Positions 991-17,296 of a stretch of DNA of 64,000 nucleotides are shown piece by piece. The stretch is from Megalonaias nervosa (taxonomy: Eukaryota; Mollusca; Bivalvia; Unionida; Unionidae), in the NCBI GenBank assembly GCA_016617855.1, contig JAECUM010003660.1, forward strand, positions 1-64,000. Reading direction: 5' to 3'. The notes below the pieces were generated by a model that worked only from the letters and a program-made list of their open reading frames with translations, did no database searches and was not told the DNA's origin. Both the position numbers and the translations under genes were made by a program. Positions within the stretch are counted from its first letter, which is position 1; the number at the start of each line of letters is the position of its first letter.

Positions 991-1719
991 ATGGCTACTT
1001 CTACTGTCTCTGCTCCCTCTTCCTCTACTGTCAAAGTCATTGACGAACACATAGATCGGACTAGTTGGGAGGCCTTGTATCTTCGCAATCCCTTTAACAT
1101 GCTCATTGCCTGACCTAACGGTTCAGGCAAAACCGAATTTGTCAAACGTTTGATCGAACATAAACATCATTTGATCGATCGTCCACCTCAACGAATCGTT
1201 TGGTGTTACAAAGAGTGGCAATCGGCGCACAGCCTTCTGCCAGAAAGTCAAGGCGATTCCATCGTCTTTGGGGAAGGCATTCCTGGCGAGGACGCCGGGA
1301 TCGTGTCTGACCCTAGTCAAACTCATTTGGTTATTTTTGACGACATGTTAGGAGAAGATGAAGAAGAAATTAAACTCTGGTTTACGCGCAAAGGGCATCA
1401 TTGTAATGCCAGTGTCATTTACATCACCCAAAATTTGTTTCAACAAAGTAAAGCCCATCGTACCATCAGTCTGAATGGTCATTACGTGGTGTTGTTTAAA
1501 AGCCCTAGAGATAAATCGCAAGTGCAAGTCTTAGCCAAACAGTTAGGAACGCCTGGGCTGACTCATGCGTACGACGATGCCACTCAAACCCCACACGCTT
1601 ATTTACTCGTGGATTTAAAACCCACCACTCCCGATTATTTGCGATTTCGTACCCAACTCTTTCACCACTGGTGCCAAGACGGAGGACCTGTCGTGTACAC
1701 GTCCCCTTCGTCGACTTAA
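991..1719 (+). pseudogene. Maverick/adintovirus packaging ATPase (A32/FtsK-HerA type), nonsense in P-loop
   Basis: Family role: the ATPase that pumps viral DNA into capsids. One frame is open from ATG 991 to TAA 1717-1719 except for a TGA at 1111-1113. That stop falls exactly at the start of the Walker A loop; the codons after it read PNGSGKTEF. Walker B is VIFDDM (about 1330-1347), and YITQNLF (about 1420-1440) is the sensor-type motif typical of Maverick and A32-like ATPases. Length without the stop (242 codons) fits the family. Translation could restart at ATG 1150, but such a product would lack the P-loop and should be inactive. Promoter-like GATAAAA lies upstream, and AATAAA at 1724 follows closely. 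Confidence 0.88.
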
Positions 1720-1723
1720 CAAC

Positions 1724-1729
1724 AATAAA
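1724..1729 (+). terminator. Polyadenylation signal AATAAA
   Basis: AATAAAA starts 5 bases after the ATPase stop and directly abuts the TATA box of the next gene (1736), a very compact gene junction. Confidence 0.5.
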
Positions 1730-1735
1730 AAAAGC

Positions 1736-1744
1736 TATAAAAAC
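1736..1744 (+). promoter_or_regulatory. TATA box of core-protein gene 1
   Basis: TATAAAAAC 48 bases upstream of ATG 1784, in an intergenic space of only 64 bases. Confidence 0.6.
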
Positions 1745-1783
1745 CTCGGTCACTTTGGCTCTGTCTCACACATACTCAACATT

Positions 1784-2512
1784 ATGTCCCTTCAGTCTCA
1801 TCTTCCCATCAAATTGATTCGTGCCTTGTACGGTATCAGTCGCGAAAAAAGTCCACAAATACGTGCTCGTGTCTTAGAAGCTAGTCTCAAAGAAGTCTTA
1901 CGATGGTTTACGGTGGCAGCACGTCAATTACTGCAAGGCATCATTCAGATTCCATATCAAACCAAACGTTGTTTTTTTGAGAGAAACAAAGTATCCTTGA
2001 CGCAGCTAGCCGATCCTTGCATTGACACTCAAAACAAAAAGAAAATCAATTTGAAACCTGGAGGAAGCGGTTCTCTAGGAGGTGTCATCATTCGTTCCCT
2101 CTTAAAATGGGATCCTGATGCTCCCAAAGTCGTCCCCAAGAAAAAAGCCATGCCCAAACGTACCCAGAAGAAAAAGAAAAAGAGCAACGGTGTCAAGACC
2201 AGGTCACAGCCTCAGAAAGAGGAAAAGAAAAGTCCACAGAAAATGGCTTCTACCCGCAAGAGAGCGTCTCCAAAAACTTCTCCTCCAGCGGTGACACCCT
2301 CTTCCGCTTTAGCGGCAGTGGCTGATGCTCACAAAGTACCTGCCCCCAAAATCAAAGTCCAAGAGTGAACGGGTGAGTTACAGAGTTTACTGGGTTTGTC
2401 CAAGCAAGAACTGCCCCGATTTAGTCCGTTGCGAACTCCTCCACGACGTGTGTTGCCTGTTATCAAGTTGATACGACGTAAAGACAATCAATGGCGACGC
2501 ATTCCAGTATAA
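1784..2512 (+). pseudogene. Basic virion core-like protein 1, in-frame TGA near C-terminus
   Basis: The first 194 codons run from ATG 1784 to TGA 2366-2368. The same frame stays coding-like after that stop (Arg/Pro-rich) to TAA 2510-2512, so the TGA is probably a mutation. Residues about 35-105 carry the Maverick core-protein pattern: a helix ending LLQGIIQIP, a Lys-rich segment, then a Gly-rich patch (GGSGSLGG). The rest is strongly Lys/Arg/Ser/Pro rich (KKKKK runs), as in DNA-condensing core proteins. It resembles the next gene (2570-3102), suggesting duplication. Function as a DNA-binding or core protein is inferred from composition and position. Confidence 0.65.
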
Positions 2513-2517
2513 AAAGG
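2508..2517 (+). promoter_or_regulatory. TATA box overlapping stop codon of previous gene
   Basis: TATAAAAAGG, 62 bases before ATG 2570. Its internal TAA (2510-2512) is also the stop codon of the extended frame of the previous gene. Confidence 0.55.
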
Positions 2518-2569
2518 ACCTGAGGCAAACAATAAGGATTAGTGTTTTTCTGCTGCTGAACGCACAAAG

Positions 2570-3102
2570 ATGTCCCCTCCAAGAAGTGCACACCGTTACC
2601 ATCGTGTTCCTTCTTCGGTCCAAAAAGGAAAAGGAAAACGAAAAAGACAGTCACGGCATCCTAAAAAGCGCTTAGCCAAACAGATGTCACCCCAAAAATG
2701 ACATTCCTTTTCTACCCCCAAAGGAAAGAAAAGGAAAGGACTGCCACCTCGTTTAGCCAAACATTGGGACATGTTGTCCGTCCTGTCCAAAGCTTCTCCA
2801 CCCGTGCGAAAAAAACTCATTCAAATTACCTCCAAAGACGTGATCGATACCGTGTGCGAATGTTGTCTGATTGTCTTGAAAGGCACAATACCTTTGTTTA
2901 AACACCAGAAAGAATGCTTAGCCAAACATCGACACGTTCTTCGCCAAATGGTCCAAAAGAAAATACCTATTGGTCACAAGAAAAAGATGTTGGTGCAACG
3001 CGGAGGAATTTTACCCTATTTCCCATGTTGCTGAAAGGAGTAATGGGAACAATAGGAGGACCCTTGCTGAAAGAAGCATTGGGAAACATCCTGGGAGGAT
3101 GA
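2570..3102 (+). pseudogene. Basic virion core-like protein 2 (PX-type), one nonsense and one frameshift
   Basis: ATG 2570 opens a 43-residue Arg/Lys-rich segment ending at TGA 2699-2701. The same frame continues without another stop from 2702 (more Lys-rich sequence, then the core domain) to TGA 3032-3034. The core domain has VCECCLIVLKGTIP, a basic helix and VQRGGILPYF, a combination typical of a conserved small Maverick/adintovirus virion-core protein. After a frameshift near 3020 a Gly-rich hydrophobic tail (GGPLLKEALGNILGG) ends at 3102. A basic N-terminus with an amphipathic or Gly tail fits a DNA-condensing or membrane-active core protein, but that role is inferred. Confidence 0.7.
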
Positions 3103-3103
3103 A

Positions 3104-3131
3104 GATAAAAAGGGCCAAGAAGATATAAGGG
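3104..3131 (+). promoter_or_regulatory. TATA-like sequences before Pro-rich gene
   Basis: GATAAAAAGG (3104) and ATATAAGGGA (about 3124) lie between the stop at 3102 and ATG 3175. Either could serve as the core promoter; the second has the spacing (about 50 bases) seen elsewhere in the element. Confidence 0.35.
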
Positions 3132-3174
3132 ACCTTTGAAGTCAAAAGATCTCAGACGTGATCCTTGAAATCCG

Positions 3175-3749
3175 ATGGAAGGACGAAAACTGGCTTTAGT
3201 GCCTTGCAAACGATGGATGGAATACCATCGTTGGCAAGAACAACGAACCCGCATTTACAACTGCAACTCTTTCACCAGAATGCTTTCAACGAAACAGCTC
3301 TACCCACTCTGAAAGATTTTAAGACTGATGAAAAGTCCATCACCACCACCTCCAGTGGTCAAGACAGATGCAGCCCCACGGATGCCTGAGGAAGAAGAGG
3401 CACGAGCAGTCTTTCAAACACCGTCAGCAGCTCCCATCCCTAGTAAGATTGCAGCGTCCTTGTTCACCCTTCCCCTACACCGCAACGAGAAGAACTTAAA
3501 GCTTGGGTTAAAAAGATGATGTCCACTCCAACTTCGACTGAAGTGAAAAAGAAAGAAGGGAAACCAGAAGGGAAACAAGAAAAGAAGACCAAAGCCATTC
3601 CATTACCACCACCACCGCCACTACTACCAAAACTACCTTCGACTTCTACTCCTGTGGCACATCGGACACGTAAAGCCGTTTCTAAACCACTTCAGAGTAC
3701 CATCAGGGAAGAGTGGATCACTTATTTTAAAAAATGGAGAAGGTGTTAG
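3175..3749 (+). pseudogene. Pro/Lys-rich Maverick protein of unknown function, broken
   Basis: Not recognised as a family. Frame 1 is open from ATG 3175, has an in-frame TGA at 3310-3312, and goes on to the stop at 3517-3519. Around 3470 the coding-like reading moves to frame 3 and ends at TAG 3747-3749. Visible features: an aromatic/Arg-rich N-terminus, two poly-Pro tracts (SPPPPP-type near 3335 and PLPPPPPLL near 3605), a low-complexity Lys/Glu stretch, and a C-terminal segment EEWITYFKKW. The last 16 bases overlap the integrase start at 3734. Location just before the integrase in a Maverick suggests a structural or accessory role only. Confidence 0.45.
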
Positions 3750-4816
3750 CCAGCATTTATTACGATCCATCCCATCCTGCAGGTTACGGAGGGGTTCAGA
3801 AATTGTATCGTGCTGCCAAAACTCGACTGAAAAGTGTTCGTTTACCTCAAGTGCAACGCTGGTTACAAGAACAATCCACGTACACCTTACACAAACCCAT
3901 TCGATGAAAATTTTCCAGAAGTCGCCCCCGAGTGGAGGGCATCGATCATCAATGGCAAGCCGATTTAGCTGATGTCTCTCATTTGGCCACCTACAATCGT
4001 GGTTAGAAATATTTCTTTTGTGTCATCGACGTCTTTTCCAAATTTGCTTCGGTCGTGCCATTGACTTCCAAATCGAGCAGTGAGTTAGTGCGAGCCCTCA
4101 AACTGGTGTTGAAACAAAGCGGTCGTCACCCTCTTCGATGGCAAACAGACAAAGGCACCGAATTTCTGAACCAAGCTTTCCAAAAGGAATTGAAGAAACG
4201 TGACATTCATTTTTTCACCACCGAGAATCCCGAAACCAAAGCCAGCATCGTGGAACGTTTTCAACGCACCTTGAAAGAACGCATGTGGAAACATGTTACG
4301 CATCAACACACTCTCAAGTACATCGACGTCTTGCCACACCTCGTCCAATCGTACAACCAATCTTACCATCGGAGCATTGGGCGTGCCCCCCCAAGAAGTG
4401 ACTCCTGACAACGAAGTGACCGTCTTCGAACTCCTGTTTGGTACGTCCCCAACAGTGACTGTCCCCAAGAAAGGTGAGTGTTGGCAGCAGGAGATTGGGT
4501 ACGCATTGGCAAAACCAAACGCACTTTCGACAAAGGTTACTTACCCAACTGGACCACCAAATTTTTTCGTGTCAGTGAACGAGTGCGTGGCCGTTATCCT
4601 CCTGTCTATAAATTGGAAGACATGAACGGGGAAGTGTTAAAAGGAACGTTTTACTTGCCCGTGTTACAACGTGTGACCAAAAAAGAAGACGACGTGTACG
4701 AGATAGAAAGCATTCTCGATCGAAGAACTCGTAAAGTGGGAAAACGACGTGTCAAAGAAGTCAAAGAACGTTGGAAAGGATATCCTCCCAGTTTTGACTC
4801 TTGGATCGACACTTAG
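3734..4816 (+). pseudogene. Maverick retrovirus-like DDE integrase with chromodomain, heavily broken
   Basis: Family role: inserts the element's DNA into host chromosomes. Frame 2 from ATG 3734 holds the N-terminal part, with in-frame stops TGA 3905-3907 and TAG 4004-4006. The RNase-H-fold core shows the first acidic residue in QADLAD, the second in TDKGTEF, and the glutamate in SIVERFQRTLKE. There are 34 residues between the second D and the E. A frameshift at the C run near 4387 and a second near 4475 separate the core from the C-terminal part (4478-4816), which ends in a chromodomain-like segment (YEIESIL ... WKGYPPSFDSWI). Central placement beside the capsid genes is typical of a self-synthesising element. 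It cannot make active protein as it stands. Confidence 0.9.
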
Positions 4817-4828
4817 CAACTCATCGAC

Positions 4829-4837
4829 TATAAAAAG
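4829..4837 (+). promoter_or_regulatory. TATA-like box before membrane-protein gene
   Basis: TATAAAAAG lies only 20 bases before ATG 4849, closer than for the other genes. The match to the recurrent element motif is exact, but the spacing makes its use uncertain. Confidence 0.35.
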
Positions 4838-4848
4838 ATGCGACCATC

Positions 4849-5262
4849 ATGCCCTTCAACACAGCCTCAGCTACTGCAGTAACCACTCCGTCGCCCAGTT
4901 CTTCTCTTCAAGATCTACAAAAGCAACCCTTGTGGGTGTGATGTGGAGAACGTGTGCCTAAAACGGAAATCGTCTTTCTCCGCCAAATCTTTGTGGTGTA
5001 TTGTGTCATCAGTGCTGCCATTGCCAATTTGAGTTTGCAACAAGGAGACAAATAATTGTGGACCATTTTACTTAGCAGTTGCATCGGTTACCTTCTTCCC
5101 AATCCGTCCCTGAAATATTCCTCTAACGGAAACAACAACGGGAGTATTGTGTCCAACGTTAGTCCCCCTTCCAACAGTCACCAATCTAATCACAACAATC
5201 CTCTTTTAGACACTCCTCTGACTTCCAGTGACTCTTCGGACACTAGAACTCTGGAATTATGA
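4849..5262 (+). pseudogene. Maverick two-helix membrane protein, two in-frame stops
   Basis: Frame 1 from ATG 4849 to TGA 5260-5262 carries in-frame stops TGA 4939-4941 and TAA 5053-5055. The N-terminus is Ser/Thr rich. The middle holds two hydrophobic helices: IFVVYCVISAAIANL and, after the second stop, LWTILLSSCIGYLLP. The rest is a polar Asn/Ser-rich tail. Small proteins with an 'LLSS.LGYLLP' helix recur in Maverick/adintovirus genomes; their exact function is unknown to me, and a virion or host-membrane role is inferred. The stop codon overlaps the start of the next gene (ATGA at 5259), showing a tightly packed gene order. Confidence 0.6.
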
Positions 5263-6171
5263 ACAACCAATTTTACTTAACGTTACCCAGTGAAAGTTCC
5301 ATGGAGGTGTTTCCCAATAACACTTTATGCTTTTTCTCGGCCAGATTACCTCAAGCCATCCAATTGGATCACGAAGCCCATTGGGAAGTGGCTTTGGTGG
5401 AAATGATTCACCCTACACAAATCAAAAACATCGTCGAAAATGAAAACACTTTTACGGTGGAAGTTCATGACCCGCAAGTGCAACAAGCCATGGATGAACG
5501 CGCCACTATAGTTGACTTTATGAAAACACAAGACCCCAAAACTAATCGCTCCACTTATCTGTTGAAAATTCCTGCGGGCTATTATTTTAGTGGTCAACAT
5601 TTGGTGAACACCATTGCCGACAGGTTCAATTTCATGTTTGGTAAAGGCTTGGAGAAAGCCAGAAGAAGTGTCACGATCGAATACCACAAAAATTGCTCGT
5701 CGTCTACTGATCAAATTTTCAGAGGACAAAGTATTGGCCATTACATTTTGTCCTGAATTGTATGACATTTTGGGTGGAGACCCCAAGATGATCAAGATTA
5801 GAAACGAAATACCATCCGTGACCGGTAACTTGGATTTTGCGACATATTTTCGATTCCCTGTACAAATGATCCAAGGACTGAATTTGATGTTTGTGTACTC
5901 CGATGTGGTGGAGTACAACGTGGTGGGACACACCTCCGTGCCGTTACTGCGTGTCATTCCTTTCAAAATGGATTCTGCCACGGCTGCTGACGAGGAAGGT
6001 CGAAACACCTATCAAGTTCACCGCGAATTTGTACATCCTCACTATTCGCCCGTCAGTAAGTCTTATTTCGACACTGTCAACATTACTATAAAAGGAGATC
6101 TGAAACAAAATATTTCATTCACCAAAGGGAAAGTCACAGTGAAACTCCATTTTCGAAAACGATTACTCTAA
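5259..6171 (+). pseudogene. Penton-like minor capsid protein (single jelly-roll), one frameshift
   Basis: Family role: forms the pentameric vertices of the icosahedral capsid. The frame from ATG 5259 begins FYLTLPSESSMEVFPNN and has WEVALVEMIHP, the characteristic N-terminal signature of Maverick minor capsid proteins. A frameshift near 5690 moves the reading from frame 3 to frame 1, which continues to TAA 6169-6171 and ends with FDTVNITIKGD and KVTVKLHFR, the family's C-terminal signature. Combined length (about 300 codons) is normal for the family. ATGA overlap with the preceding gene. A TATAAAAGG at 6087 inside its 3' end may serve the next gene. Confidence 0.87.
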
Positions 6172-6184
6172 CTTTTTGTCAGTC

Positions 6185-6626
6185 ATGTATCCTGTGTACC
6201 AAGGAGTCACTCGACAGAGAGGACATGGTTTAGGTGATATGCTAAAATCAGCCTTTCGTACAGTGGTTCCCGTTTTGAAAAAGATGGTGACACGGACATT
6301 GCACGCCTTGAAAGATGCCGCGTTGACGCAAGGTAAAGAATTTCTCCAAAATGTCATCATTGACAAACAAAATCCCAGAGAAGCTTTCTTGAGAGCAGGC
6401 AAAAATGTCTTGTTTCAAACGGGAAAAGACATTTTTGGGCCGGCGAGAAACTCCTATAAATGCTCTGGGCGATGCTGAGTCAGGCATTCCTGCTTCCCCG
6501 ACGCCACAGCAAGGACAAGGCAGAAAAAGACGACGAAGACACCCCTTGATAGGACATCACACCCCTAGAGCTAGAAAGACTAAGAAAAGAAAAACCGTCC
6601 GAGAGTTAGACGTGCTTGATTACTAA
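6185..6626 (+). pseudogene. pVI-like small basic capsid-associated protein, one frameshift
   Basis: ATG 6185 opens MYPVYQGVTRQRGHG followed by an amphipathic helix region (LKSAFRTVVPVLKKMVTRTL) and further helix up to about 6450. The frame then ends at 6478. Coding-like reading resumes in frame 3 with a basic tail (GRKRRRRHPL, KTKKRKTV) and ends at 6624-6626. A Gly/Arg N-terminus, amphipathic helix and basic C-terminus recur in Maverick/adintovirus genes found between penton and major capsid genes. They have been compared with adenovirus pVI, the membrane-active cement protein. That functional parallel is inference here. The start at 6176 would use a TTG, so ATG 6185 is preferred. Confidence 0.6.
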
Positions 6627-6636
6627 ATCAGACAAA

Positions 6637-7938
6637 ATGATGCACCGAGAGTCTTGTGCTTGTTCCAGATCGGAACTGGATCTGTTTGCCATGCCATCCG
6701 CCATGATGACGATGCAAGAATCCCAATGGGTAGAATTTCATCCCGTCTCCTCTTTGACGGATTCAGCTCCCATCGAGTTTGAAATCAAAGGACAACCCGA
6801 AGATTACATCCATCTGAATAGCAGTTACTTATATCTGAAATTCAAAGTGATCAAAACCGACAGCACCAATCCGGAAGCCGATGCCAGAATAGCTCCCGTC
6901 AACAATTTCATGCATTCCTTGTTCTGCGAAGTGGATTTGTACTTGAATAACAAACTGGTCAGCAGTAGAATGGATACTTACCCTTACCAAGCGTACCTAG
7001 AAAATCTCCTGACGTATGGAAAAGAGACCAAGAACACTCATCTGGATGCTTGCGTGGTATGGAAACCTGACACCGCAGGTAAAGACACGTTTAACGACAC
7101 AGCTCTGACAGTCGATGTCAATCCTCACAATGTGGGTTTTAACAACCGTCGAAAGAAAACCCTGGAAACTCGTAGTTTAGAACTGATGGATCGCTTGCAT
7201 TTGGACATGTGGTTGCAAGACAGGTATTTGCTGAACGAAGTAGATATTCGCCTGAGACTCAATCGCAGCAGTGCTGCTTTCCATTTGATGGCTCATGCCA
7301 ATGAGTACAAAACCATCATCCAAGAAGCCAGACTTTACGTGCGTCGCGTAGAAGTGTTACCTAAAGCGGGAAACGACATCAGTCACACATTAAGCAAAAC
7401 GACCGCCAAGTATCCGATACGACATGTAAAAGTGAAAACGTTCACCATTGCTGCTGGACTCCGATCCAAGATCGAAGATCATCGGTTCCAAGGACAGTTA
7501 CCCAAGCGTTTAATCGTTGGCATCGTCAGTAATGCAGCCCTCAACGGAGCCCACGATCAAAATCCTTTCCAATTTAAGCACTACAGAGTGTCCAAGATCG
7601 AAGTCAGTCGCGATGGCAAGACCTTGTGTACCAGACCCTTCGACCCTAACTTTGCCCAGAAGAATTACTTGAGCTCGTACTTGTGCCTGTACGAAGCTAC
7701 CGGACAACTAGGAACCAACACCAGTCACGGTATTTCGTACGACGATTATGTAGGAGGTTACACTTTGTGGGCCTTTGATTTCACTCCAGACCAAGGCAGC
7801 GACGAGGAACATTTCCACCCTATAAAATCTGGTCAACTGCCTGTGGGACTTCAGTTTGCATAAGTTCTCACCGAGACGGTCAACGTCATCTTGTATGCCG
7901 AATTCAATAATAGCATCGAAATAAACAGTTTGAGATAA
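6637..7938 (+). pseudogene. Major capsid protein (double jelly-roll hexon type), late premature stop
   Basis: Family role: forms the hexagonal capsomers of the virion. ATG 6637 leads into CSRSELDLFAMP and WVEFHPVSSL, then IEFEIKGQPEDYI and NNFMHSLFCEVDLYLN, all hallmark segments of the Maverick major capsid protein. YPYQAYLENLLTYG and the C-terminal SYDDYVGGYTLWAFDFTPD also match. The frame is uninterrupted to TAA 7861-7863. Beyond it the same frame reads TETVNVILYAEF and ends at TAA 7936-7938, which is the usual C-terminal strand of the family. The stop therefore removes about 24 residues. This is the best preserved of the large genes; about 409 residues remain. A TATAAAT at 6455 lies upstream but far away. 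Confidence 0.92.
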
Positions 7939-7961
7939 GTCATTCTAGACTATTAGAAACA

Positions 7962-8468
7962 ATGGAAGACTCCTATCCCTCACTGAACGGTAGAGAATCT
8001 TTGGAAATGGAACGGGAGGATAGCGTGAAAACAGAACCCCAAGACCATGTCGAAGAGGAAGAGGTAGTGGTCACGTCCAGATGGCCAGAACAAGAACAAC
8101 ATTTAGTGTCCTGTTTTGCTAAGCACCTGGCGGATAAAAGTACGGAATTGACCAAGAGAGATTGCTATGGATGTCAAAATGATCATCCCAGTCAAATTCA
8201 ACACGATAAATGTCTGATGATGAGTCAAGAAGAAGAATTGGACGAGTATCTGGACGAAGCTTGGAGTCTCATCTCGGAAGAAGCAGTGTTGCATGAGTGG
8301 TATAAAGGCTTGCGTGATCATTCCTGCCCTGCATTGACTACTCTGGAAATCTATCGCATCGAAGCTCTCTTAGCCCACAGTTGGGAGACAAGGCGAAGAA
8401 ACGGCTACTTGACAGAGCGTTTCAAACAAAAAGTCAGAACTGAATTGATGACTTATCATTACGTGTGA
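7962..8468 (+). CDS. Conserved Maverick Cys/His protein, intact ORF
   Basis: An uninterrupted 168-residue ORF from ATG 7962, 24 bases after the full-length capsid stop. The first 40 residues are acidic. Residues 68-84 form a compact Cys/His cluster (C68, C71, H74, H81, C84, with DHPSQ between), which could bind zinc and recurs in proteins of this position in Maverick/adintovirus elements. The second half is helical and charged. Function unknown; structural or regulatory roles are both possible. It is notable as one of the few element genes here without a visible break. A TATAAAATC at 7821 inside the capsid gene may be its promoter. Confidence 0.7.
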   Translation: MEDSYPSLNGRESLEMEREDSVKTEPQDHVEEEEVVVTSRWPEQEQHLVSCFAKHLADKSTELTKRDCYGCQNDHPSQIQHDKCLMMSQEEELDEYLDEAWSLISEEAVLHEWYKGLRDHSCPALTTLEIYRIEALLAHSWETRRRNGYLTERFKQKVRTELMTYHYV

Positions 8469-8496
8469 AAAAACAAGAAGAAAAAAACAACAAAAA

Positions 8497-8960
8497 ATGG
8501 ATACCTGGGAAATTTATTACCTTTTGAACAATAGTTCGCATACTGCTTCTTTGAATCCTGTCGTGTGCGCTAAAGATGAACTACCTCATCGCAAACCTCA
8601 AGACCATCAAGCTTATGTCATCAACACGGTCGACAGTCATCTGCCAGGAACTCACTGGGTTGCCGTCTACTTCCCTCAAGTGGACTGTGTGGAATATTTT
8701 GATTCGTATGGATTACCACCTTGGAAGACGATATCATTGAATTTATGAGAAGGAATGCCCAGACGACACGATGCAATGATGTGAAATTACAAGGTACAGA
8801 TTCCATGGTGTGTGGACAATATTGTGTGTATTGTCTTCATCATCGGAGTATTGGATATCCTTTAGAACATTTAGTGACTTATTTTGATCGTCATTCTTCT
8901 AGAAACGATGAGAAAGTAGATCAATGGTTTTGTGACCATTATGGCTATCTTTGTCTTTAG
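8497..8960 (+). pseudogene. Adenain-type cysteine protease, one frameshift
   Basis: Family role: maturation protease that cleaves capsid and core precursors. The ORF from ATG 8497 has the catalytic histidine in GTHWVAVYF (residue 53) and the acidic residue in FDSYG (D69), positions close to those of adenovirus protease. A frameshift near 8725 moves to the frame read from about 8721 to TAG 8958-8960, which contains the catalytic cysteine in VCGQYC and the Gln-bearing context. A further coding-like stretch in a third frame (to TAA 9050-9052, Gln/His/Trp rich with a CQPC) may be the original C-terminus after another indel. The stop is followed by AATAAA at 9087. Confidence 0.87.
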
Positions 8961-9092: not shown

Positions 9093-9224
9093 AAATGTTG
9101 TGTTTTGAAAAAATGTGTCTGTTGTTTGTTTTCAAAAAGCACTGTGAATATATGCTCTTTGACTTTCTCTCTATCCCTCACCATGACATTCGCTATCATA
9201 GCGTTCCGACACTAAAACCTAGTA

Positions 9225-9286
9225 GGGATGTTTTCTATCGCGTCCGCGTTTGAACCATATAAAGCGGGTTGGTCTCCAGTCTGGCC
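9225..9286 (+). promoter_or_regulatory. Cassette 1 promoter (GGGATGTTT / TATAAAG / CAGTCTGG)
   Basis: GGGATGTTT at 9225, then CGTCCGCG, TATAAAG at 9258 and CAGTCTGGC at 9277. The same three blocks with the same spacing (33 and 19 bases) precede cassettes 2 and 3. CAGTCT with a preceding pyrimidine resembles an initiator, but is closer to the TATA box than usual. Confidence 0.65.
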
Positions 9287-9309: not shown

Positions 9310-9687
9310 ATGAAGATGCCTTCCAGACTAGCCAAGCTGAACGAAGCTTACGTCAATTTACATCGTGTTAGGCTAAACCTGATACCTAAGCCTGAAGAGA
9401 TAGAGAATGTCAGGATGTTAGCAATAGCCCAAGACCCGATAGAAGAGGTCTTCAGAGAGGAAATCAAGAAAGAACAAGAAGAATGGACAGAGAAGTTCAG
9501 ACTTCAGAAGCAGAGAGAACAGCAACAACAACAGCAGCAGCAGCAACAGCAGCAGCAGCAAGAACCAGACAGAGGTTTTGTCGACTGCCGTGTGGACACC
9601 AAAGAGTTCTCCTTCTCTTTCCGCAGAAGCAGGCCGTATCGTATTGGAAAGCCTGCTGCCGGACGGGGACGTAATCTTCGACAGTAA
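9310..9687 (+). CDS. Cassette 1 protein: charged, poly-Gln, basic C-terminus
   Basis: 125 residues from ATG 9310, the first ATG after the TATA box; upstream in-frame non-ATG codons lie inside the promoter. No family recognised. The N-terminal half is helical and charged (PSRLAKLNEAYVNLHRVRL, then EEVFREEIKKEQEEW). A run of 14 Gln (CAG/CAA mix) follows, then an Arg/Gly-rich tail (FRRSRPYRIGKPAAGRGR). The stop is 34 bases before a histone-type stem-loop. The mixed CAG/CAA codons argue for a selected or old Gln tract rather than a fresh microsatellite. The basic tail suggests nucleic-acid binding, which is inference. Confidence 0.6.
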   Translation: MKMPSRLAKLNEAYVNLHRVRLNLIPKPEEIENVRMLAIAQDPIEEVFREEIKKEQEEWTEKFRLQKQREQQQQQQQQQQQQQQEPDRGFVDCRVDTKEFSFSFRRSRPYRIGKPAAGRGRNLRQ

Positions 9688-9721
9688 AAAAGATTGCCAT
9701 CACTCCCCGTCAGCAAAAAAC

Positions 9722-9758
9722 AGCCCTTTTCAGGGATACCCCAATACTCTCGAAAAGA
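9722..9758 (+). terminator. Histone-type 3' stem-loop and downstream element, cassette 1
   Basis: AGCCCT-TTTC-AGGGAT (9722-9737) has a 6-bp stem with one G/A mismatch and the 4-base loop of metazoan histone mRNAs. CTCTCGAAAAGA (9747-9758) starts 10 bases later, like the purine-rich U7-binding element. It is followed by TTCAATTGCCA, shared in form with the other two cassettes. A back-up AATAAA is at 9806. Confidence 0.65.
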
Positions 9759-9814
9759 CATACTAATTCAATTGCCAAAACAAATTTGTGTTTTTGTATG
9801 TTTAAAATAAATAG

Positions 9815-9834
9815 AAGTGTGTCTATAAGCACTT
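9815..9834 (+). repeat. Imperfect palindrome around CTATAA, shared with cassette 2
   Basis: AAGTG..CTATAA..CACTT (9815-9834). A counterpart AGTGT-GACTATAA-ACACT lies at 10686-10703 after cassette 2. Both follow the histone-type 3' end by about 60 to 80 bases. Function unknown; it supports duplication of the whole cassette. Confidence 0.4.
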
Positions 9835-9946
9835 CGTTTCTCTGTCTTGTCAGATAATGTATATCTGTGTTTTTAAGTAAAAAAAAGGCAACGTAAGTGC
9901 TTCTTTTAGGTCCGCGCGTTTGATGTGATGGTAAGTTTTGGTGTTA

Positions 9947-10012
9947 GGGGATGTTTACCATCACGTCCGTGCTTCAAGTATATAAAGCGACGCGATCGTC
10001 AGTCTGGCTACC
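9947..10012 (+). promoter_or_regulatory. Cassette 2 promoter
   Basis: GGGATGTTT at 9948, CACGTCCGTGCTT, TATATAAAG at 9979 (TATAAA at 9981) and CAGTCTGGC at 10000: the same blocks and spacing as cassettes 1 and 3. A partial extra copy of the CGTCCG-type block (GTCCGCGCGTTTGA) is at 9910. Confidence 0.65.
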
Positions 10013-10038
10013 CATCGTCAACGAGACATCTATAAAGA

Positions 10039-10583
10039 ATGAGCAGAATAAGTAAATTGTTGGAATTCCAAATGCACCTGGAGTATGCCAGGCGCCTCCT
10101 GGATGAGCTGGCTATGGAGGCCATTGCAGAAGCAGCCCAGTTGGAAGAAGAGGAGGAAAATAGAAGAAAGAAGAGGAGAAGGAAAAGAAGCGAGGGATCC
10201 TGCCTCACCTCATACTAAGACCTCTGTGTGAGGTCAAGTCTGAGGTGAGGACACCAACGTCTCCACAGCCACCACTTCCACAACAAACACAGCCACAGCC
10301 TCTGCCACCAATACCAAGAGCCGATGTCCCCCAGAGAGAAACCTGGGAGGAGGAGGCATGGGAGGAATTGGAAAGACAGAGGCAAGAGTGGGAGCCTCGG
10401 CGTCAGCATCATCCCAGGGTGTGGAATAGAAGGAGGGCACAAGTGTTCACTATCCCTCAAACAGGAGTGGATAATGAAGCCAATCAACCTCCCTCTGCGC
10501 TCCCAACCACGCGCATAAATTGGGAGCAGGACTGGAGCCGGCGATGCATGTGTGGTACCCGCCCTGGGAGATGTCATCATTAA
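10039..10583 (+). CDS. Cassette 2 gene: helical/basic start and Pro/Arg-rich second frame
   Basis: ATG 10039 opens a 59-residue ORF (helix LLEFQMHLEYARRLLDELAM, acidic run, then RRKKRRRKR) ending at TAA 10216-10218. An overlapping frame, open from 10164 to the stop at 10581-10583, lacks an ATG near its start. It reads Pro/Gln-rich (QPPLPQQTQPQPLPP) then Trp/Glu/Arg-rich (WEEEAWEELERQRQEWEPRR) and ends in a Cys-containing tail. The histone-type stem-loop sits 29 bases after the second stop and 394 after the first, so the second frame is probably the real 3' part. The gene therefore either suffered a one-base indel near 10164-10215 or uses frameshifting. No family recognised. Confidence 0.5.
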
Positions 10584-10611
10584 CCAGGCGCATTTGGAGT
10601 TCTAAGAAAAC

Positions 10612-10647
10612 AGCCCTTCTCAGGGCTAACCAGATCTCTAGAAAAGA
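10612..10647 (+). terminator. Histone-type 3' stem-loop and downstream element, cassette 2
   Basis: AGCCCT-TCTC-AGGGCT (10612-10627) is a perfect 6-bp stem with a 4-base loop of the UYUN form allowed in histone mRNAs. CTCTAGAAAAGA (10636-10647) begins 9 bases later. TTCAATTTGCCA follows, as in the other cassettes. Confidence 0.7.
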
Positions 10648-10716
10648 GAGACTATTCAATTTGCCAGTTTGTGTGAATGTGAAATAGTGTGACTATAAAC
10701 ACTCACTTCTTTACTG

Positions 10717-10752
<36 letters not shown>
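10717..10752 (+). repeat. (GT)n microsatellite
   Basis: About 18 uninterrupted GT units directly before the 45-bp minisatellite. Confidence 0.9.
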
Positions 10753-10755
<3 letters not shown>

Positions 10756-11190
10756 TGTTCGCATTCGTTTGTGAGGATAGTATAGTGTGTATGTTTTATG
10801 CATTCTCGTTCATTGGTGTGGATAGTAAATATGGTGTTTTATGCATTCTCGTTCGTTGGTGTGGATAGTAATTATGTGCATTTTATGCTTTCGCGTTCAT
10901 TTGTGAGGATAGCAAATATGTTGTGTTTTATGCATTCTCGTTCGTTGGTGTAGATAGTAAATATGGTGTGTTTTATGCATTCTCATTCGTTGGTGTGGAT
11001 AGTAGATGTGGTGTGTTTTATGCATTCGCGTTTGTTAGTGTGGATAGTATATGGTGTGTTTTATGCTTTCGCGTTCGTTGGTGAGGATAGTAAATATGGT
11101 GTGTTTTATACATTCTCGTTCGTTGGTGTGGATAGTAAATATGGTGTGTTTTATGCATTCACAATCGTTGGTGTGGATAGTATATAATAT
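10752..11190 (+). repeat. 45-bp minisatellite, about 9 to 10 copies
   Basis: Unit of the form TTATGCATTCTCGTTCGTTG + GTGTGGATAGTAAATATGGT + GTGTT, with copies diverged by point changes and small indels. The period is a multiple of three, so it gives spurious open frames with a 15-residue repeat (HSRSLVWIV...). No start context or 3' signal suggests expression. It separates cassette 2 from cassette 3. Confidence 0.85.
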
Positions 11191-11205
11191 GTTAAGTGAG
11201 TGTAA

Positions 11206-11265
11206 GGGATGTTTTCGCTCACGTCCGTGCTTGACGTATATAACGCGGAACGCTAGTCAGTCTTA
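11206..11265 (+). promoter_or_regulatory. Cassette 3 promoter
   Basis: GGGATGTTT at 11206, CACGTCCGTGCTTGA, TATATAACG at 11237 and TCAGTCTT with CAG at 11258. Same spacing as cassettes 1 and 2 (33 bases to the TATAA core, then 19 bases). Confidence 0.65.
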
Positions 11266-11283
11266 AAAGACAGTTGGTATTGG

Positions 11284-11820
11284 ATGATGGATGGATCATA
11301 CGTACTGGATAGGCTTGAAAAGGAATGGAGATTCACAGGCAGCCAAGACTTGGTGGCCAGACTGAAAGTAGCCAGTTTTGAATTACAAGGAATGATAGTG
11401 GAGGAAGCGGAGAAGTTGAGAGTCTTCATACAACTTAAATATGTAAGAGTGGGAACTTTGAAACAGGTGATTGATATTGTTATAGAAGTCAGATGTTATT
11501 TGGAAGACATATTCCATTTAACCGAGTGGCCTTTTGTCAAAAAAGGCTTAGACGGCTTAAAGAAAGGAGAAGAGATTATGAAAAAGGTAATGGGAGAAGA
11601 GGTGAAGAAAATAAAAGAGATATGGACAAAAGAGAGAATGGAGAAGGAAAACCAAAAAAAGAAAAAGGACTTTGAAAGAATGAACATTAACTGGATGAAA
11701 ATACAGAAAAAATTTAGAGACATGGGTCATCGAGACTGGATTCCAGACGAAGAAAAGAAAAAGACGAAGAAAGGAATAATTGGAAAATTAAGAAGTTGGT
11801 GGAAGAGCTGGAGACAATAG
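11284..11820 (+). CDS. Cassette 3 protein: intact 178-residue Lys/Glu-rich helical protein
   Basis: Uninterrupted ORF from ATG 11284 (ATGATG; 11287 also possible). No family recognised. Residues 5-80 alternate hydrophobic and charged in three predicted helices: YVLDRLEKEW, a long one from about LVARLK to VFIQLK, and LKQVIDIVIEVRCYL. This layout is compatible with, but does not prove, a histone fold. Residues 90-160 are a very Lys/Glu-rich coiled-coil-like helix; the end is basic and Trp-rich (LRSWWKSWRQ). The TAG stop lies 14 bases before the most canonical histone-type stem-loop in the window. Its intactness beside a broken Maverick suggests recent origin or selection. Confidence 0.65.
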   Translation: MMDGSYVLDRLEKEWRFTGSQDLVARLKVASFELQGMIVEEAEKLRVFIQLKYVRVGTLKQVIDIVIEVRCYLEDIFHLTEWPFVKKGLDGLKKGEEIMKKVMGEEVKKIKEIWTKERMEKENQKKKKDFERMNINWMKIQKKFRDMGHRDWIPDEEKKKTKKGIIGKLRSWWKSWRQ

Positions 11821-11834
11821 AAGCAAAAACCAAA

Positions 11835-11871
11835 GGCTCTTTTCAGGGCCACTTCCTATGCCTCGAAAAGA
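11835..11871 (+). terminator. Histone-type 3' stem-loop and downstream element, cassette 3
   Basis: GGCTCTTTTCAGGGCC (11835-11850), preceded by CCAAA and followed by AC, fits the metazoan histone 3' end consensus GGCYCTTTTCAGRGCC exactly, with one G-U pair in the stem. GCCTCGAAAAGA (11860-11871) starts 10 bases downstream, where the U7-binding element is expected. Confidence 0.75.
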
Positions 11872-12184
11872 TATTTATTTTCACTTTGCCATATATGTGT
11901 TATCTATGTGTTATCTATGTCATATGTCTATGTCTCTCTATTGTATTTGTCTCTACCTAGAGTAGCTGCGCGTATTCAGGTCAGCCACTTGCTACATTGT
12001 TGCAAGTGTCCAGTACCGTGACGTCACCCTACCTGTTCCATTCCTATTGTCCCTATACAACATTCCCATTGAGGCTATAGTGCACCAGGGTGATATTTTG
12101 AAGCTATAAATCTTGAGGCTACGGTACAACCCCCTAAAATTAACATTACGGTCTACGTGAGGCTACGGTGCCCCCATATACTAC
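11872..12184. other. Junction between cassette array and gypsy relic, no gene seen
   Basis: Contains short direct repeats (GTTATCTATGT, and GAGGCTA(C/T)GGTGC-type motifs at about 12074, 12115 and 12161). No ORF, LTR end or Maverick terminal repeat could be recognised; the right end of the Maverick may lie here. Confidence 0.35.
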
Positions 12185-12467: not shown

Positions 12468-13079
12468 CTAGACTACTGTTTTCCTCATTAATCTCTTCAC
12501 TGTTTTCACCGCGTTCTCCACTCTTCCATTTGATTGAGGGTATCCTGGTGAGCTAGTTTTGTGTTTGAACTCGTAAGTACGTGCAAATTCTGCAAAATCT
12601 TTTCCTGAGAATGGTGGTCTATTGTCTGATACAAGTTCATCCGGTATTCCATACCTGGCCATGTGAGCTTTCATTTTTATGATGACTTCTTTGGCAGTCT
12701 TATCATAAAGTGTACCAACTTCAACAAAATTTGAATAATAGTCTACTGTGACCAGATATGCTTTCTTGTCAAAATCACATAGGTCTACACCTATCTTCTC
12801 CCATGGCCTTGTAGGCACATCGTGACTTATGAGTGGCTCCTTCTGCTGCTGAGAAAAATATGCATTGCATATTTCACACTTTGCAATATAGTTTTCTATT
12901 TCGCGATTCATGTTTGGCCAATATATAGCTTCTCTGGCTCTTTGCAGGCAACCTTGTATTCCTATATGACTGGAGTGCAGCCTTTCCATTATCGAATCTT
13001 TCAGTGTGGCGGGGATCACGACACAGTCACTTTTGAAAATCAGCCCATTCTGTAACAGATCTCGGAAACGCTTAATCAC
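12468..13079 (-). pseudogene. Gypsy integrase: zinc-binding and catalytic core
   Basis: The minus-strand ORF shows the HHCC zinc domain (LHSSHIGIQG ... CEICN) and the DDE core. The first Asp is in GVDLCDF, the second in LVSDNRPPF (family DNG replaced by DNR), and the Glu in SNGRVENAV. WPNM and YWP motifs precede the zinc Cys pair. The frame stops at 12,468 (after KRLMRKTVV), so it is cut off from the C-terminal part. Integration activity is unlikely. Confidence 0.85.
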
Positions 13080-13940
13080 GCGTATTTGGGCGCAAATTTT
13101 TTATCTGGGACGCAGAAAATCACGTATGCAGGAGTCCTTCGTACGCATGCAATTGCTGGACGGCAAATTCAAGGGCTTACCAGTCCTGCTTCAAACACCT
13201 GCTGAGTGGGAAAATGTGTTGATCAATTTACAATGACATAATTCAGTGGCTGAAAGACCCCCATATGTACATGTTGTCATTGTAAGAGTATATCAGAAGA
13301 ACACGAACACAATAGCTTGGCAGCAAGTTCAAAGAATTTAGCGGCTGAGAGGTGGGAAAATGTACTGATATTTACAATGACTGAATTCAGAGGCAGAACG
13401 ACCCTTTGATGTACTTGTGTATAAGAGTACATCAAATGAACAACTTTAGCTTTCATTATTGTGTTCATTTTCAGGAGTAGCCGAATAAGTAGTGCATGTA
13501 ACCTCGAAATCGACTTGTTGAGCGTTAGACAAAATGTTGTTTGCAAATTTGGACAAGTATTTTGGGGTTAATGGGCAAAATTGACGAAGATTGCATTGAG
13601 ATTCAGCATAGTGCTAAATTTGCTAGAATTTATAGTTCGTATGGAACACTTTGTGTGATGCCTAGCTTAGTGCTTGGAATAAGACCTTTCCTTGGCCTGA
13701 CATAATTCACTCTCACTCCAGTGGACAAACAAGAACTATATGTCAGTGATGTAAAGAAGTTAGAAAATTAAACTCAGTAGCAACCACTGGTTCAACTCAT
13801 CTGGAAATTTAGCTATTTCAGGTATGCCCAATATGCTTCTGGTAGGGGACTGCAACTTTTGCTGCAGAGACTCCTGTTTTTCCCAAACTAGAAGTCCTGG
13901 ACTCCTAGTTTTAAAATCCTAGCGAGACCTCTGTGTAATG
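13080..13940. other. Insertion inside gypsy pol
   Basis: The gypsy coding sequence stops making sense at about 13,940 (minus strand, after the RNase H-integrase spacer) and resumes at 13,079. The intervening 860 bases have no gypsy similarity. They include a diverged direct duplication: GTGGGAAAATGT.CTGAT..TTTACAATGA at about 13,208 and 13,353. No transposase or TIR seen. Confidence 0.45.
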
Positions 13941-14151
13941 TCAGTTCCTCTCGGAAATGAAAGTAATACTATAGTTCTTGTGGAAGTACCTTTTTTTCTC
14001 CTGGCCATCATCTCTGAATGACTTTTGTCGCTGTCTTAACTGAAAATCCGTTTCAGTTTCTCTCTGAATCTCAGTGATGCGTTCCATTGAAACTGGTAGA
14101 TACTCAACCATACTCACACTTTCTATTGCTTTCTCTGTGAATGAGCGGGTA

Positions 14152-14409
14152 TCAAACCTCAAACACTCTATCGCTATCCCTTACTTTCTTGGTGCAGGGC
14201 AAATATGCACGACTCAATGTATCAGCCATGTACATCTGTGTACCTTGCTTGTAGACTACAATGAAGTCAAATTTCTGTGGTTTTAAGAGCATTCTTTGCA
14301 GCCGCTTTGGTGCACTAACTAAAGTTTTCTTGCAGATTATTTCAAGTGGTTTGTGGTCACTTTCTATGACCACTCGTCTCCCGTGGATGTAGTTCTCAAA
14401 TCTTTCCAT
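14152..14409 (-). pseudogene. Gypsy RNase H C-terminal region
   Basis: Contains VIESDHKPLE, APKRLQRMLL, QKFDFIVVYK and ADTLSRAYLP, the conserved RNase H and tether motifs of Ty3/gypsy pol. The following frame (13,941-14,162) holds the spacer with EYLPVS and EIQRETETD, after which the insertion interrupts the gene. Confidence 0.85.
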
Positions 14410-14458
14410 TCCAAAAATTATTGCTTATAACTCCTTCTCGATTTGTGCATAATTTACC

Positions 14459-15008
14459 TCAGTCAGTGAGTGCACGTGAGGCATAGGCAACTGGGTGCCC
14501 CTCTTGGAGCAAACAAGCCCTTAGCCCCATTTTTGATGCATCTGGCGCTGGTGCTATACCAAATGGCATTCTCCTCCATCTGTATCGTCCCCATGGCGTT
14601 CCATATGTGGTGAGTCTGCTAGATTCCTCATCTATTTTAACATTCCAAAACCCATTTTTTGCATCCACAACAGTAAAAATTCTCGCCCTGCTCAGGTCTG
14701 GCAGAACATCTATTGTTGGAGTTGGTTAACGGTTCCTTTTCAAGACTTTTTTTTAAAGGTTGTGGGTCAATGCACAACCTTATTTTCTTGTTGTTTTTCA
14801 TAACCACCACCATGCTAGAAATCGAATCTGTTGGTTCTTTCTCCGGAGTCAATATTCCAAGTTTCACCAGTCGTTGAATTTCTGCCCTCAACTTCGGCAT
14901 AACAGCTAATGGAATTTTCCTCACTGGCAGTTTTACTGGTTTGGCTTGTTCTGTCAGTTGAAGGTGGAGTTCTTCTTCCAAGAGACCTTCTCCACAGAAT
15001 GTCTTCAT
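14459..15008 (-). pseudogene. Gypsy reverse transcriptase with internal deletion
   Basis: The first frame has the RT N-terminal motifs KLPVRKIPLAVMPKL, LVKLGIL and IRLCIDPQPL. Another frame continues DAKNGFWNVKIDE and RMPFGIAPAP. At this point, about 14,540, the reading jumps directly to the RNase H start (ASKMGLRACLLQEGHPVAY ASRALTD). The catalytic Y-D-D segment and connection domain, around 180 residues, are missing. The element therefore cannot reverse-transcribe itself. Confidence 0.85.
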
Positions 15009-15670
15009 ATTCCTGTATGAGATTTTGTGTTGTCTCTACTGTCATGATATGTTGTTTATTTACAGTAATAAGTTTCATTTTCTGCACTGCTTGTTCTCCA
15101 AGCAGGGGTCTTGCCTTCGCTTGTACAATTACAAACACTAAGATGTAAACTTCCTTATTCTTTGGATTTGTAATGTGTAATTTTCTTTTACCCAAGGCTC
15201 TCGTTTCACTGATGTTATACATAACAAGTGTCACATTGTTCGTTTCCAGGTGCTTCAGTTTGTCATCATGGCATACTGTCTTATAATCTGTTTCAGAGAT
15301 TATGTTAACTGCTGAGCCAGTCTAACTGGAAATTTATTTGACTCTCCCCTAAAGTCATTTTGGCAAATAATTTCTTTGGGTATGTTTCTATACCATTCAC
15401 TTCTTTGACTGTCAACACAAATTCATCACTATCACTGTCAAGACTTGAATCATTATCTATAACTTTTACCCCATCTTTCTGCTTGTATTTCTTTTTGTGT
15501 ACCTTCCATTTTGGAGTTTTCTGCTTGCACTTTAATGCAAAATGGTTCTTTAACCCACATTTTGCACACATTTTTCCAACGACCAGGCAAACCTCTTTCT
15601 TTGCTTCATGTTTTTTCCCCGCAGTAGTCACACTCTCTTTGCTGATGACTTTGCTTTTATGACTTTTCAC
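15009..15670 (-). pseudogene. Gypsy zinc knuckle and aspartic protease region
   Basis: Minus-strand ORF 15,305-15,670 contains a retroviral-type zinc knuckle (CAKCGLKNHFALKC), then an acidic linker (SSLDSDSDEF) and the protease start (INFQLD..). The catalytic Asp is followed by a stop and frame change. The protease body (VTLVMYN, KLHITNP, ARPLLGEQA) continues in the overlapping frame 14,815-15,234. Confidence 0.75.
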
Positions 15671-16324
15671 TCTTGCTTTGGGCTAATATCCACACTTCTT
15701 CCTGATGCATAGCTTTCATCTGTTCTTGCGATTTTTCGTTTACTCGACAAATATCTATGCAAGTTCTTAAGGTTAACTTCTTGTCTTGCAACAGTTTTCT
15801 CCTGGTGTTGTTGTCTCTTATTCCAATTACCATTCTATCTCGCAACAGACTGTCCTCTAAGTCACCGTAGTTACACGTTTGTGCTAGTGATCTTGACGCA
15901 GCGACGTAGGCATCAATCATCTCGTCTGCTTCCTGTTGTCGACAATTGAAATTGTACGTTCATAGGTTTCGTTTGTTTCTCCTATACAGTACTTTTCAAA
16001 CTTGTCAAGTACTTTGTCAGGTTTATCTCTGTCTCCATCATTCTCAAATGTGAAGGTATCGAACAGCTCTATGGTGTATGGCCCTAAACACGCAAGAAGA
16101 GTGGCTATTCTCAGTTTTGGCGCTTTTTCTGCCAGCCCCGTAGCTACTTCATAGTTCACCCAGACTCTCTTGACTTTTTTTCCAGTTCGCAGATCAATTT
16201 CCCCGAAGCTCCAGTTTCGGCGGAAAGGGTATTGATGATGTAGGCGAAGTTGCCACCCTTCTGACACTATGTAACGTCTTTCTATGACAAATTGAATACA
16301 TAAGACAGGGCTGTACTCAAACAC
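15657..16324 (-). pseudogene. Gypsy gag capsid region
   Basis: Two frames (15,917-16,324 and 15,657-15,920) with RIATLLACLGPYTIELFDTF, YCIGETNETYER and then SLAQTCNYGDLEDSLLRDRM and GIRDNNTRRKLL. This is the usual gag pattern of K02A2.6-like gypsy elements in invertebrates. A frameshift near 15,920 joins the two. The start at 16,324 is not certain. Confidence 0.75.
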
Positions 16325-17296
16325 GTTTAATCACTCCGCTCCGGGGGCGCTCACCAGTTATATCTACTTTTGAGAGAGTGATGTTTGTATGGTGAAGTTG
16401 TTTGCATTTAAAACATGCACAGTGGAGAGAATGTTGGCATACCTCTATTCTACTTTGATGTAATGTGGCTGACGTTTCTTTGAATATTGTACTTTTGGAA
16501 ATTGTAAATGATCTTAGCACACTGCTAACTAAAATGACTGCTCCCTTGTGCTCCAAAAATCAGCCTGAATTTGTCTAAAGTACACTATCTTTAGTAGCTT
16601 TAAAATAGGGAAAATGAATTTTGCCAGACTAGACAATGCCATCTTCTGAAAGTGTAATGAATGAATTACCAAATATATAAAATGCAAAAAAAAAAAAGTT
16701 ATCGGCTCTTTTTTACAATTTACCTCTGAAGTTCAGGAAGTGAAAATGACCAAGTGGAGCTAGCTCTTTTTGAAAGATGCACATCTGGAGTAAGGCCAAG
16801 CTGTATACTCTATAACCCATATTACACCCATCAATCATACACCAAAATAAAGGGAATTAAAGGTTCTTTGAACAATACCTAAGATATTCAAGGTCTTTAT
16901 TAAATAGCCAGTATAACTAGTGAGGAAACCCGGAGGAAGTCTTTTTCTTTAAAATTCTAAACTATGCAAAATACGAAACTGTAGTGGTCCACCTGTAGCA
17001 CATGTTGCACCGTTCTATTCTTTCAAAAAGAGAGCACAACAGTAATAAGGGAAATAATTCATACGACCTTAATTTGAACTGGACTAATACATGTACGTAT
17101 GCATTACGTTACAGCATTGATGGCAACTTTTTGAATTGCATCAAGCTGTTTAGTACACAATGGTTTTTTGGGGTGGGTGGGGACGGTTGTTATTTTTTCT
17201 CGAATTATAACCGAGGGAAAGGGCATACGTTTGTACTGTAAGCGTCCCTTTGTGCCAGAAATGACCTTCGGAAGTGAAGCATTCGGGTACTGGTTA
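16325..17296. other. Non-coding, no gene seen
   Basis: May contain the gypsy leader or 5' LTR next to 16,324, otherwise AT-rich sequence. A minus-strand Cys/His-containing frame (16,317-16,556) has no recognisable domain. Confidence 0.4.

Follow-up and report, generated by a model that had tools for sequence, protein, structure and literature searches.

To our knowledge, the histone hairpin signal is in animals otherwise used for histone genes. The locus described here raises the question of why three short non-histone genes, located next to a Maverick/Polinton-type element, should each be followed by a signal of this form. Non-histone genes with a histone end would break the rule, and a mobile DNA element would be borrowing the histone 3' machinery. 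The window considered below is the whole stretch of DNA that was analysed, 64 kb of a Megalonaias nervosa contig.

Histone-type stem-loops downstream of three short genes

An earlier note on this DNA had placed stem-loops of the histone form after three consecutive reading frames, and all three are found on the forward strand where it had put them (Table 1). The 6-bp stem that it ascribed to each is complete after ORF2 and ORF3 (6/6 pairs), while after ORF1 only five of the six pairs form. The distances between stop codon and stem (34, 28 and 14 nt for ORF1, ORF2 and ORF3, respectively) agree with the 13 to 35 bases given before. Likewise, each stem is followed by an AAAAGA-type element and then by TTGCCA, as had been noticed; the gap from stem to GAAAAGA is near-constant (14, 13 and 14 nt), and that from GAAAAGA to TTGCCA is 13, 13 and 14 nt. 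The CTC trinucleotide, supposed to follow the stem after 9 to 10 bases, in fact lies at 9, 8 and 11 nt. The description as consecutive reading frames applies to ORF1 and ORF3, but the middle gene is spread over two overlapping frames. With these corrections, the presence of three histone-form stem-loops with a downstream element is confirmed.

Across the three copies of the stem, 17 of the 18 pair cells form; one pair differs at both of its positions (A-U to G-C), and another cell is mispaired. With the partners shifted by 1-3 columns at most 66.7% are paired, always short of the real arrangement; covariation is not above shuffles (163/500 equal it), three sequences being too few for proof. 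Folding energy by itself is unremarkable at the three sites (z of -0.52, -2.45 and -1.25). The ordinary folding energy, and a TTGCCA element with no assigned role, would suit hairpins that are not mRNA 3' ends but serve as DNA or RNA elements of some other sort, for instance in terminating transcription or as signals for replication or for packaging. We regard this as very improbable, because the sequence, the loop, the A-rich 5' flank and the downstream element jointly fit the histone signal three times, each time past a stop codon.

Table 1. Features of the locus, in window coordinates
Feature	Position	Strand	Description
Structural and integration genes of Maverick	1114..8960	+	Left of the cassettes, same strand
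ATPase	1114-1719	+	Similarity to L020; own Pfam match Pox_A32 below cut-off
Integrase with chromodomain	about 3740-4825	+	Pfam rve PF00665 (4.9e-10), Chromo PF00385 (1.3e-5)
Penton-like gene	5247-6171	+	Similarity and order as in L020
Capsid-like protein gene	6616-7863	+	Similarity and order as in L020; 244 relatives
Protease	8452-8960	+	Similarity and order as in L020
Putative promoter module, ORF1	9222..9282	+	Palindrome CGCGTCCGCG, ATATAA 9257, CAGTCT 9277; 70% identity to 9945 copy
ORF1	9310..9687	+	125 aa, Q-rich, basic C-terminus; no family; 8 homologues
Histone-type stem-loop, ORF1	9722..9737	+	AGCCCT-TTTC-AGGGAT, 5/6 pairs, one G-A mispair; 14.6 bits
GAAAAGA, candidate U7 pairing element, ORF1	9752..9758	+	
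TTGCCA, third element common to the ORF ends, ORF1	9772..9777	+	
AATAAA after ORF1	9806..9811	+	Possible alternative poly(A) signal
Putative promoter module, ORF2	9945..10005	+	Palindrome CACGTCCGTG, ATATAA 9980, CAGTCT 10000
ORF2 gene	10039..10583	+	Two overlapping frames, 10039-10218 and 10164-10583
Histone-type stem-loop, ORF2	10612..10627	+	AGCCCT-TCTC-AGGGCT, 6/6 pairs; 22.6 bits
GAAAAGA, candidate U7 pairing element, ORF2	10641..10647	+	GAAAAGAGAG
TTGCCA, ORF2 end	10661..10666	+	
Putative promoter module, ORF3	11203..11263	+	Palindrome CACGTCCGTG, ATATAA 11238, CAGTCT 11258; 80% identity to 9945 copy
ORF3	11284..11820	+	178 aa, lysine-rich; no family; 5 homologues
Histone-type stem-loop, ORF3	11835..11850	+	GGCTCT-TTTC-AGGGCC, 6/6 pairs; 29.6 bits
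GAAAAGA, candidate U7 pairing element, ORF3	11865..11871	+	
TTGCCA, ORF3 end	11886..11891	+	

Rfam scores and chance expectation

When short stretches were searched against all 4227 Rfam families, the histone 3' stem-loop family RF00032 matched at 11830-11876 (29.6 bits, E 5.1e-6), 10607-10651 (22.6 bits, E 2.1e-3) and 9717-9761 (14.6 bits, E 0.38). Over 20 kb, the two stronger sites have E-values of 6.8e-5 and 0.028, and the third has no listed match. The gathering score of 34 bits is reached by none of the three sites, and a gathering-level Rfam scan of the window is empty; they are therefore described here as probably working like a histone end, not as curated members of RF00032. A SCARNA7 match at 10631-10772 (26.6 bits, cut-off 65) sits on a TG repeat and was rejected.

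The chance expectation was estimated with a filter that demands agreement with the consensus in 15 of its 16 letters as well as 5 pairs, with CTC..GAAAAGA as the downstream element. This filter is partly post hoc, since the consensus was widened (A being allowed in the outer pair) and the downstream element was borrowed from the finding itself. It retrieves three sites on the forward strand of the window, all with the downstream element, and none on the reverse strand. Three matches were obtained in 60 first-order Markov windows of 64 kb (both strands) and one in 600 local simulations of 3.1 kb, none of them with the downstream element. Relaxing the threshold to 14/16 letters adds six hairpins in the window, again with the element in none.

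Among the viral contigs of IMG/VR, the exact consensus GGCTCTTTTCAGRGCC occurs in 19 stretches, none with GAAAAGA at 13-14 nt, and was taken as chance; GAAAAGA lies within 60 nt in three of the 19, at gaps of 45, 45 and 27. The two stretches with the 45-nt gap look like one sequence present twice. The combination CTTTTCAGRGCY..GAAAAGA was found in nine stretches, none with 6 pairs, and was likewise attributed to chance in a very large collection, including the two (L027 and L030) in which 5 pairs form and GAAAAGA follows after 13 nt. Exact-short-peptide searches of IMG/VR with the capsid protein, ORF3 and ORF1 gave no confirmed relatives, nor did histone H4, used as a yardstick; near records may escape such searches.

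The six weaker hairpins elsewhere in the window, together with L027 and L030, are what speaks for the three sites being a chance resemblance. That explanation is barely credible, given that all three sites fall within 2.2 kb and carry the downstream element, against none in the 60 simulated windows, and that the stem-loops coincide with a promoter module on the same genes.

The three genes and their common upstream module

All three products are basic, with pI values of 9.8 (ORF1), 9.1 (second frame of ORF2) and 9.6 (ORF3). For the same three sequences, Pfam searched at E up to 10 yielded no histone family and no accepted domain. The best matches in solved-structure searches have E-values of 0.13 and 0.11, and the best PHROGs match (E 0.0096) is to an entry of unknown function. 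The predicted model of ORF3 is helical, with a pLDDT of 58, a low confidence that does not permit a search by fold. We do not claim that the three proteins descend from one ancestor: hhalign probabilities are 2.0, 0.3 and 6.1%, and for ORF1 against ORF3 a BLAST E-value of 3e-5 is reached only with masking and composition correction switched off.

All eight candidates for ORF1 proved to be homologues, with 78-87% identity over the aligned part (one covers only 43%), as did five of the 111 candidates for ORF3 (53-70% identity). Each of these five has residues ahead of the first methionine of the window ORF3, so the copy in the window may have a shortened start. Within 10120-10218 of the ORF2 gene there is a single GT, at 10140; its double frame might conceal an intron, a frameshift being equally likely.

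A repeat search revealed a 61-nt repeat (D3) upstream of each of the same three genes. It contains GGGATGTTT, an inverted repeat (CGCGTCCGCG once and CACGTCCGTG twice, both half-sites varying in concert), ATATAA and CAGTCT. ATATAA starts 20 nt ahead of CAGTCT in every copy, and CAGTCT precedes the ATG by 33 nt in ORF1, 39 nt in ORF2 and 26 nt in ORF3. Two parts of the repeat, CGTCCG[CT]G and ATATAA[AC]GCG, are confined to the three modules on both strands of the window. Of the eight ORF1 homologues, two have predicted proteins that extend upstream and at whose front the ORF1 module is recognisable as translated DNA; the match scores 86 in P0128, against 36 for the best of 300 shuffles, and 63 against 43 in P0131. 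The same translated comparison of the ORF2 and ORF3 modules with the upstream parts of ORF1 homologues gave no score above shuffles.

The TATA and start-like motifs suggest that the 61-nt module is a promoter. Since this module and the 3' end are common to the same three genes, the observation is stronger than first reported, and it suggests that each gene forms a compact cassette, with the same type of start in all three and an end of histone type.

The surrounding Maverick

The order of the genes to the left of the cassettes (ATPase, integrase, penton-like, capsid-like, protease, where 'capsid' and 'penton' are presumed labels) is that of the tubeworm Maverick contig L020. Reading frames of L020 match DNA_pol_B_2, Adeno_IVa2 (ATPase), rve and Chromo, with Peptidase_C5 (protease) below the cut-off, and by these matches the element is identified as a Maverick. 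Of the characters of such elements, the window contains a retrovirus-like integrase with a chromodomain and, by similarity to L020, a packaging ATPase, a capsid and an adenovirus-type protease. Left of its ATPase, L020 has the protein-primed type B DNA polymerase (DNA_pol_B_2); the corresponding side coincides with the start of the window or lies outside it, and searching the window on the basis of L020 revealed no polymerase. No terminal repeats were recognised among the 25 longest inverted repeats, mostly AT repeats, and the left end of the element probably lies beyond the window. To the right, on the opposite strand, comes a retroelement that has integrase and RNase H domains.

Relatives of the capsid protein number 244, and those named among the 120 listed belong to Mercenaria, Ostrea, Crassostrea, Saccostrea and one Candidatus Thiodiazotropha MAG, which suggests a bivalve-like host; the closest among the matches listed are 75-90% identical. 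The named bivalve matches include no ORF1 or ORF3 homologue, and the ORF1 module starts 262 nt past the protease frame. From this adjacency and this absence we infer that the cassettes belong to the Maverick. No histone-type site is present in L020 or in a second tubeworm Maverick piece (L021), both found among GTDB contigs. The copy of the element in the window is decayed, the penton and protease genes each lying in two frames and the integrase and capsid similarities crossing stops; its stem-loop sites may therefore be out of use.

Two kinds of gene end

The ATPase, capsid and protease frames each have an AATAAA near their end, at 1724, 7920 and 9087, respectively, and none lies close to the integrase or penton ends. 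The tubeworm protease genes are likewise followed by AATAAA, at a distance of about 300 nt for L020 and 30 nt for L021. In contrast, neither AATAAA nor ATTAAA is found after ORF2 (to 11202) or after ORF3 (to 13760). Weaker variants are TATAAA at 10694 (ORF2) and 12105 (ORF3), and AGTAAA, four times after ORF2 and once after ORF3. ORF1 is followed by an AATAAA (Table 1). Some human histone genes bear both histone and poly(A) signals, according to the available part of PMC9756948, and thus the AATAAA after ORF1 is compatible with the histone route.

These signals bear on the possibility that the cassettes are relics, a host histone cassette (promoter and 3' end) having once been captured and copied, so that the genes now rely on polyadenylation and their stem-loops have lost any role. 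The AATAAA after ORF1, the variants after ORF2 and ORF3, the mispair in the ORF1 stem and the decay of the copy are in line with it; on the other hand, the spacing and all elements are retained in three genes despite differing surrounding sequence, and two of the genes have no AATAAA or ATTAAA downstream. On balance a relic seems unlikely.

A possible route to S-phase expression

The best explanation of the locus is probably that of accessory Maverick cassettes processed by SLBP and the U7 snRNP, whose proteins are timed to S phase. The Maverick would hold, past its protease gene, three short accessory genes in matching cassettes, in each of which a promoter of the common type and a histone-type end would flank a short coding region. 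Host SLBP would bind the stem-loop, GAAAAGA would base-pair with the U7 snRNP, and cleavage by CPSF73 between the two would leave the stem-loop, in place of poly(A), at the 3' end of the mRNA. SLBP-dependent mRNAs, as known for histone mRNAs, are made and kept mainly during DNA copying. For that reason the proteins are proposed to be made in S phase, at which time conditions in the cell are most favourable for copying foreign DNA. The cleavage, the absence of poly(A) and the S-phase timing are all predictions from the signals in the DNA.

An AAAGAG core pairs with CUCUUU of mouse U7, as described in the portion of PMC7026596 that was available. Compared with this core, which may not be that of the host, the GAAAAGA sites agree in 6/6 letters at ORF2 and in 5/6 at ORF1 and at ORF3.

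SLBP-like binding could also operate with no coupling to S phase, serving quick processing, export or translation of short intronless mRNAs, or an escape from a polyadenylation block. The short genes and short leaders would suit such a role, but in those animals that have been studied SLBP is itself present mainly during S phase, and we hold this version to be decidedly improbable.

For SLBP/U7 processing of the cassettes speak the three complete sites, each past a stop and with a near-constant gap to GAAAAGA, the RF00032 matches, the lack of a full site in any simulated window, the common promoter module, the homologues of ORF1 and ORF3, and the lack of AATAAA and ATTAAA after ORF2 and ORF3, as opposed to AATAAA near the ATPase, capsid and protease ends, and the likeness of GAAAAGA to the core that pairs with mouse U7. 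Against it are the sub-gathering Rfam scores, the ORF1 mispair and the AATAAA at 9806, the weaker poly(A) variants after ORF2 and ORF3, covariation within the range of shuffles, the decay of this copy, the lack of recognised terminal repeats, and the two tubeworm Maverick pieces without such sites. The proposal of the earlier note, that non-histone genes of a Maverick have 3' ends of histone type, finds support in the sequence and gains the promoter module. The wider claim, that these genes form a three-gene regulon of an animal virus-like element, with one promoter type and a histone-type end through which SLBP and the U7 snRNP couple expression to the host S phase, has about an even chance of being correct.

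If true, this would be the first known case of animal mRNAs other than those of histones, and also of viral mRNAs, with a histone stem-loop instead of poly(A). Such mRNAs would give a simple molecular route coupling the genes of a virus-like element to S phase, and would explain how such genes could escape poly(A)-selected RNA-seq.

Comparison with known systems

The three sites resemble the replication-dependent histone 3' end (RF00032) in the 6-bp stem, the 4-nt loop (TTTC or TCTC), the A-rich 5' flank, the purine-rich element 13-14 nt past the stem, and the nearby stop. They differ from it in that the genes encode no histone, the scores fall below the Rfam cut-off and one stem is imperfect. 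Histone mRNAs of the clam Lucina pectinata are reported to have the stem-loop, with purine-rich elements nearby only in some and at varied positions (PMC6210712, available part); the regular spacing in the window is thus not simply copied from that report.

As in Maverick/Polinton elements and adintoviruses, an integrase with a chromodomain, an ATPase, a capsid-like protein and a protease are present, here in the order of L020; unlike the locus, the two tubeworm relatives are without the cassettes. Among the papers that searches of the open PMC library listed, no title or abstract start describes histone-type ends for Mavericks, adintoviruses or other viral genes, although absence from print is unproven, and 'stem-loop' has no occurrence in the accessible parts of PMC11071296 and PMC11071308. 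A clam-associated adomavirus encodes a histone-like protein, 'Histoid' (PMC11071296, accessible part). As far as that part of the source goes, what the two cases have in common is that clam data yielded a small DNA virus sequence with a feature related to histones; there it is the protein that resembles histones, whereas here it is only the mRNA end.

Sequence elements of the three genes and their surroundings

In all three gene ends, the distance from GAAAAGA, the candidate U7 pairing element, to TTGCCA is constant; the histone 3' end signal is not known to include TTGCCA. Residues N-terminal to the first methionine of ORF3 in the window are present in all homologues compared (5/5), and at 11257-11300 the putative start-site motif CAGTCT directly adjoins coding sequence matching these homologues, so part of the 5' end may have been lost from this copy. 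A tandem repeat array separates the ORF2 end from the putative ORF3 promoter module.

The strongly basic 194-aa ORF, without a Pfam match, could encode a virion DNA-binding protein. The window also contains a broken retroelement, which is probably gypsy-like, and an inverted repeat that is perhaps a small transposon. The Maverick pieces L020 and L021 were found within a MAG of a tubeworm (Escarpia) endosymbiont and are probably host DNA binned together with the bacterium.

Features located in the window
Feature	Position	Details
Palindrome	9239-9248, 9962-9971, 11220-11229	one per putative promoter module (n=3)
TTGCCA	9772-9777, 10661-10666, 11886-11891	3' of GAAAAGA
ORF, 194 aa	1784-2368	net charge +31, pI 10.8
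Tandem repeat array	10744-11230	unit ~45 nt
Broken retroelement	12468-16330	minus strand; RNase H domain, integrase core and zinc-binding domains
Inverted repeat	17288-17510	arms 55 nt, 91% complementary, spacing 113 nt

The palindrome of the putative promoter modules occurs as CACG-TC-CGTG (two copies) and CGCG-TC-CGCG (one copy). Among these three copies the half-sites vary jointly between versions, a pattern that would fit a dimer-bound site.
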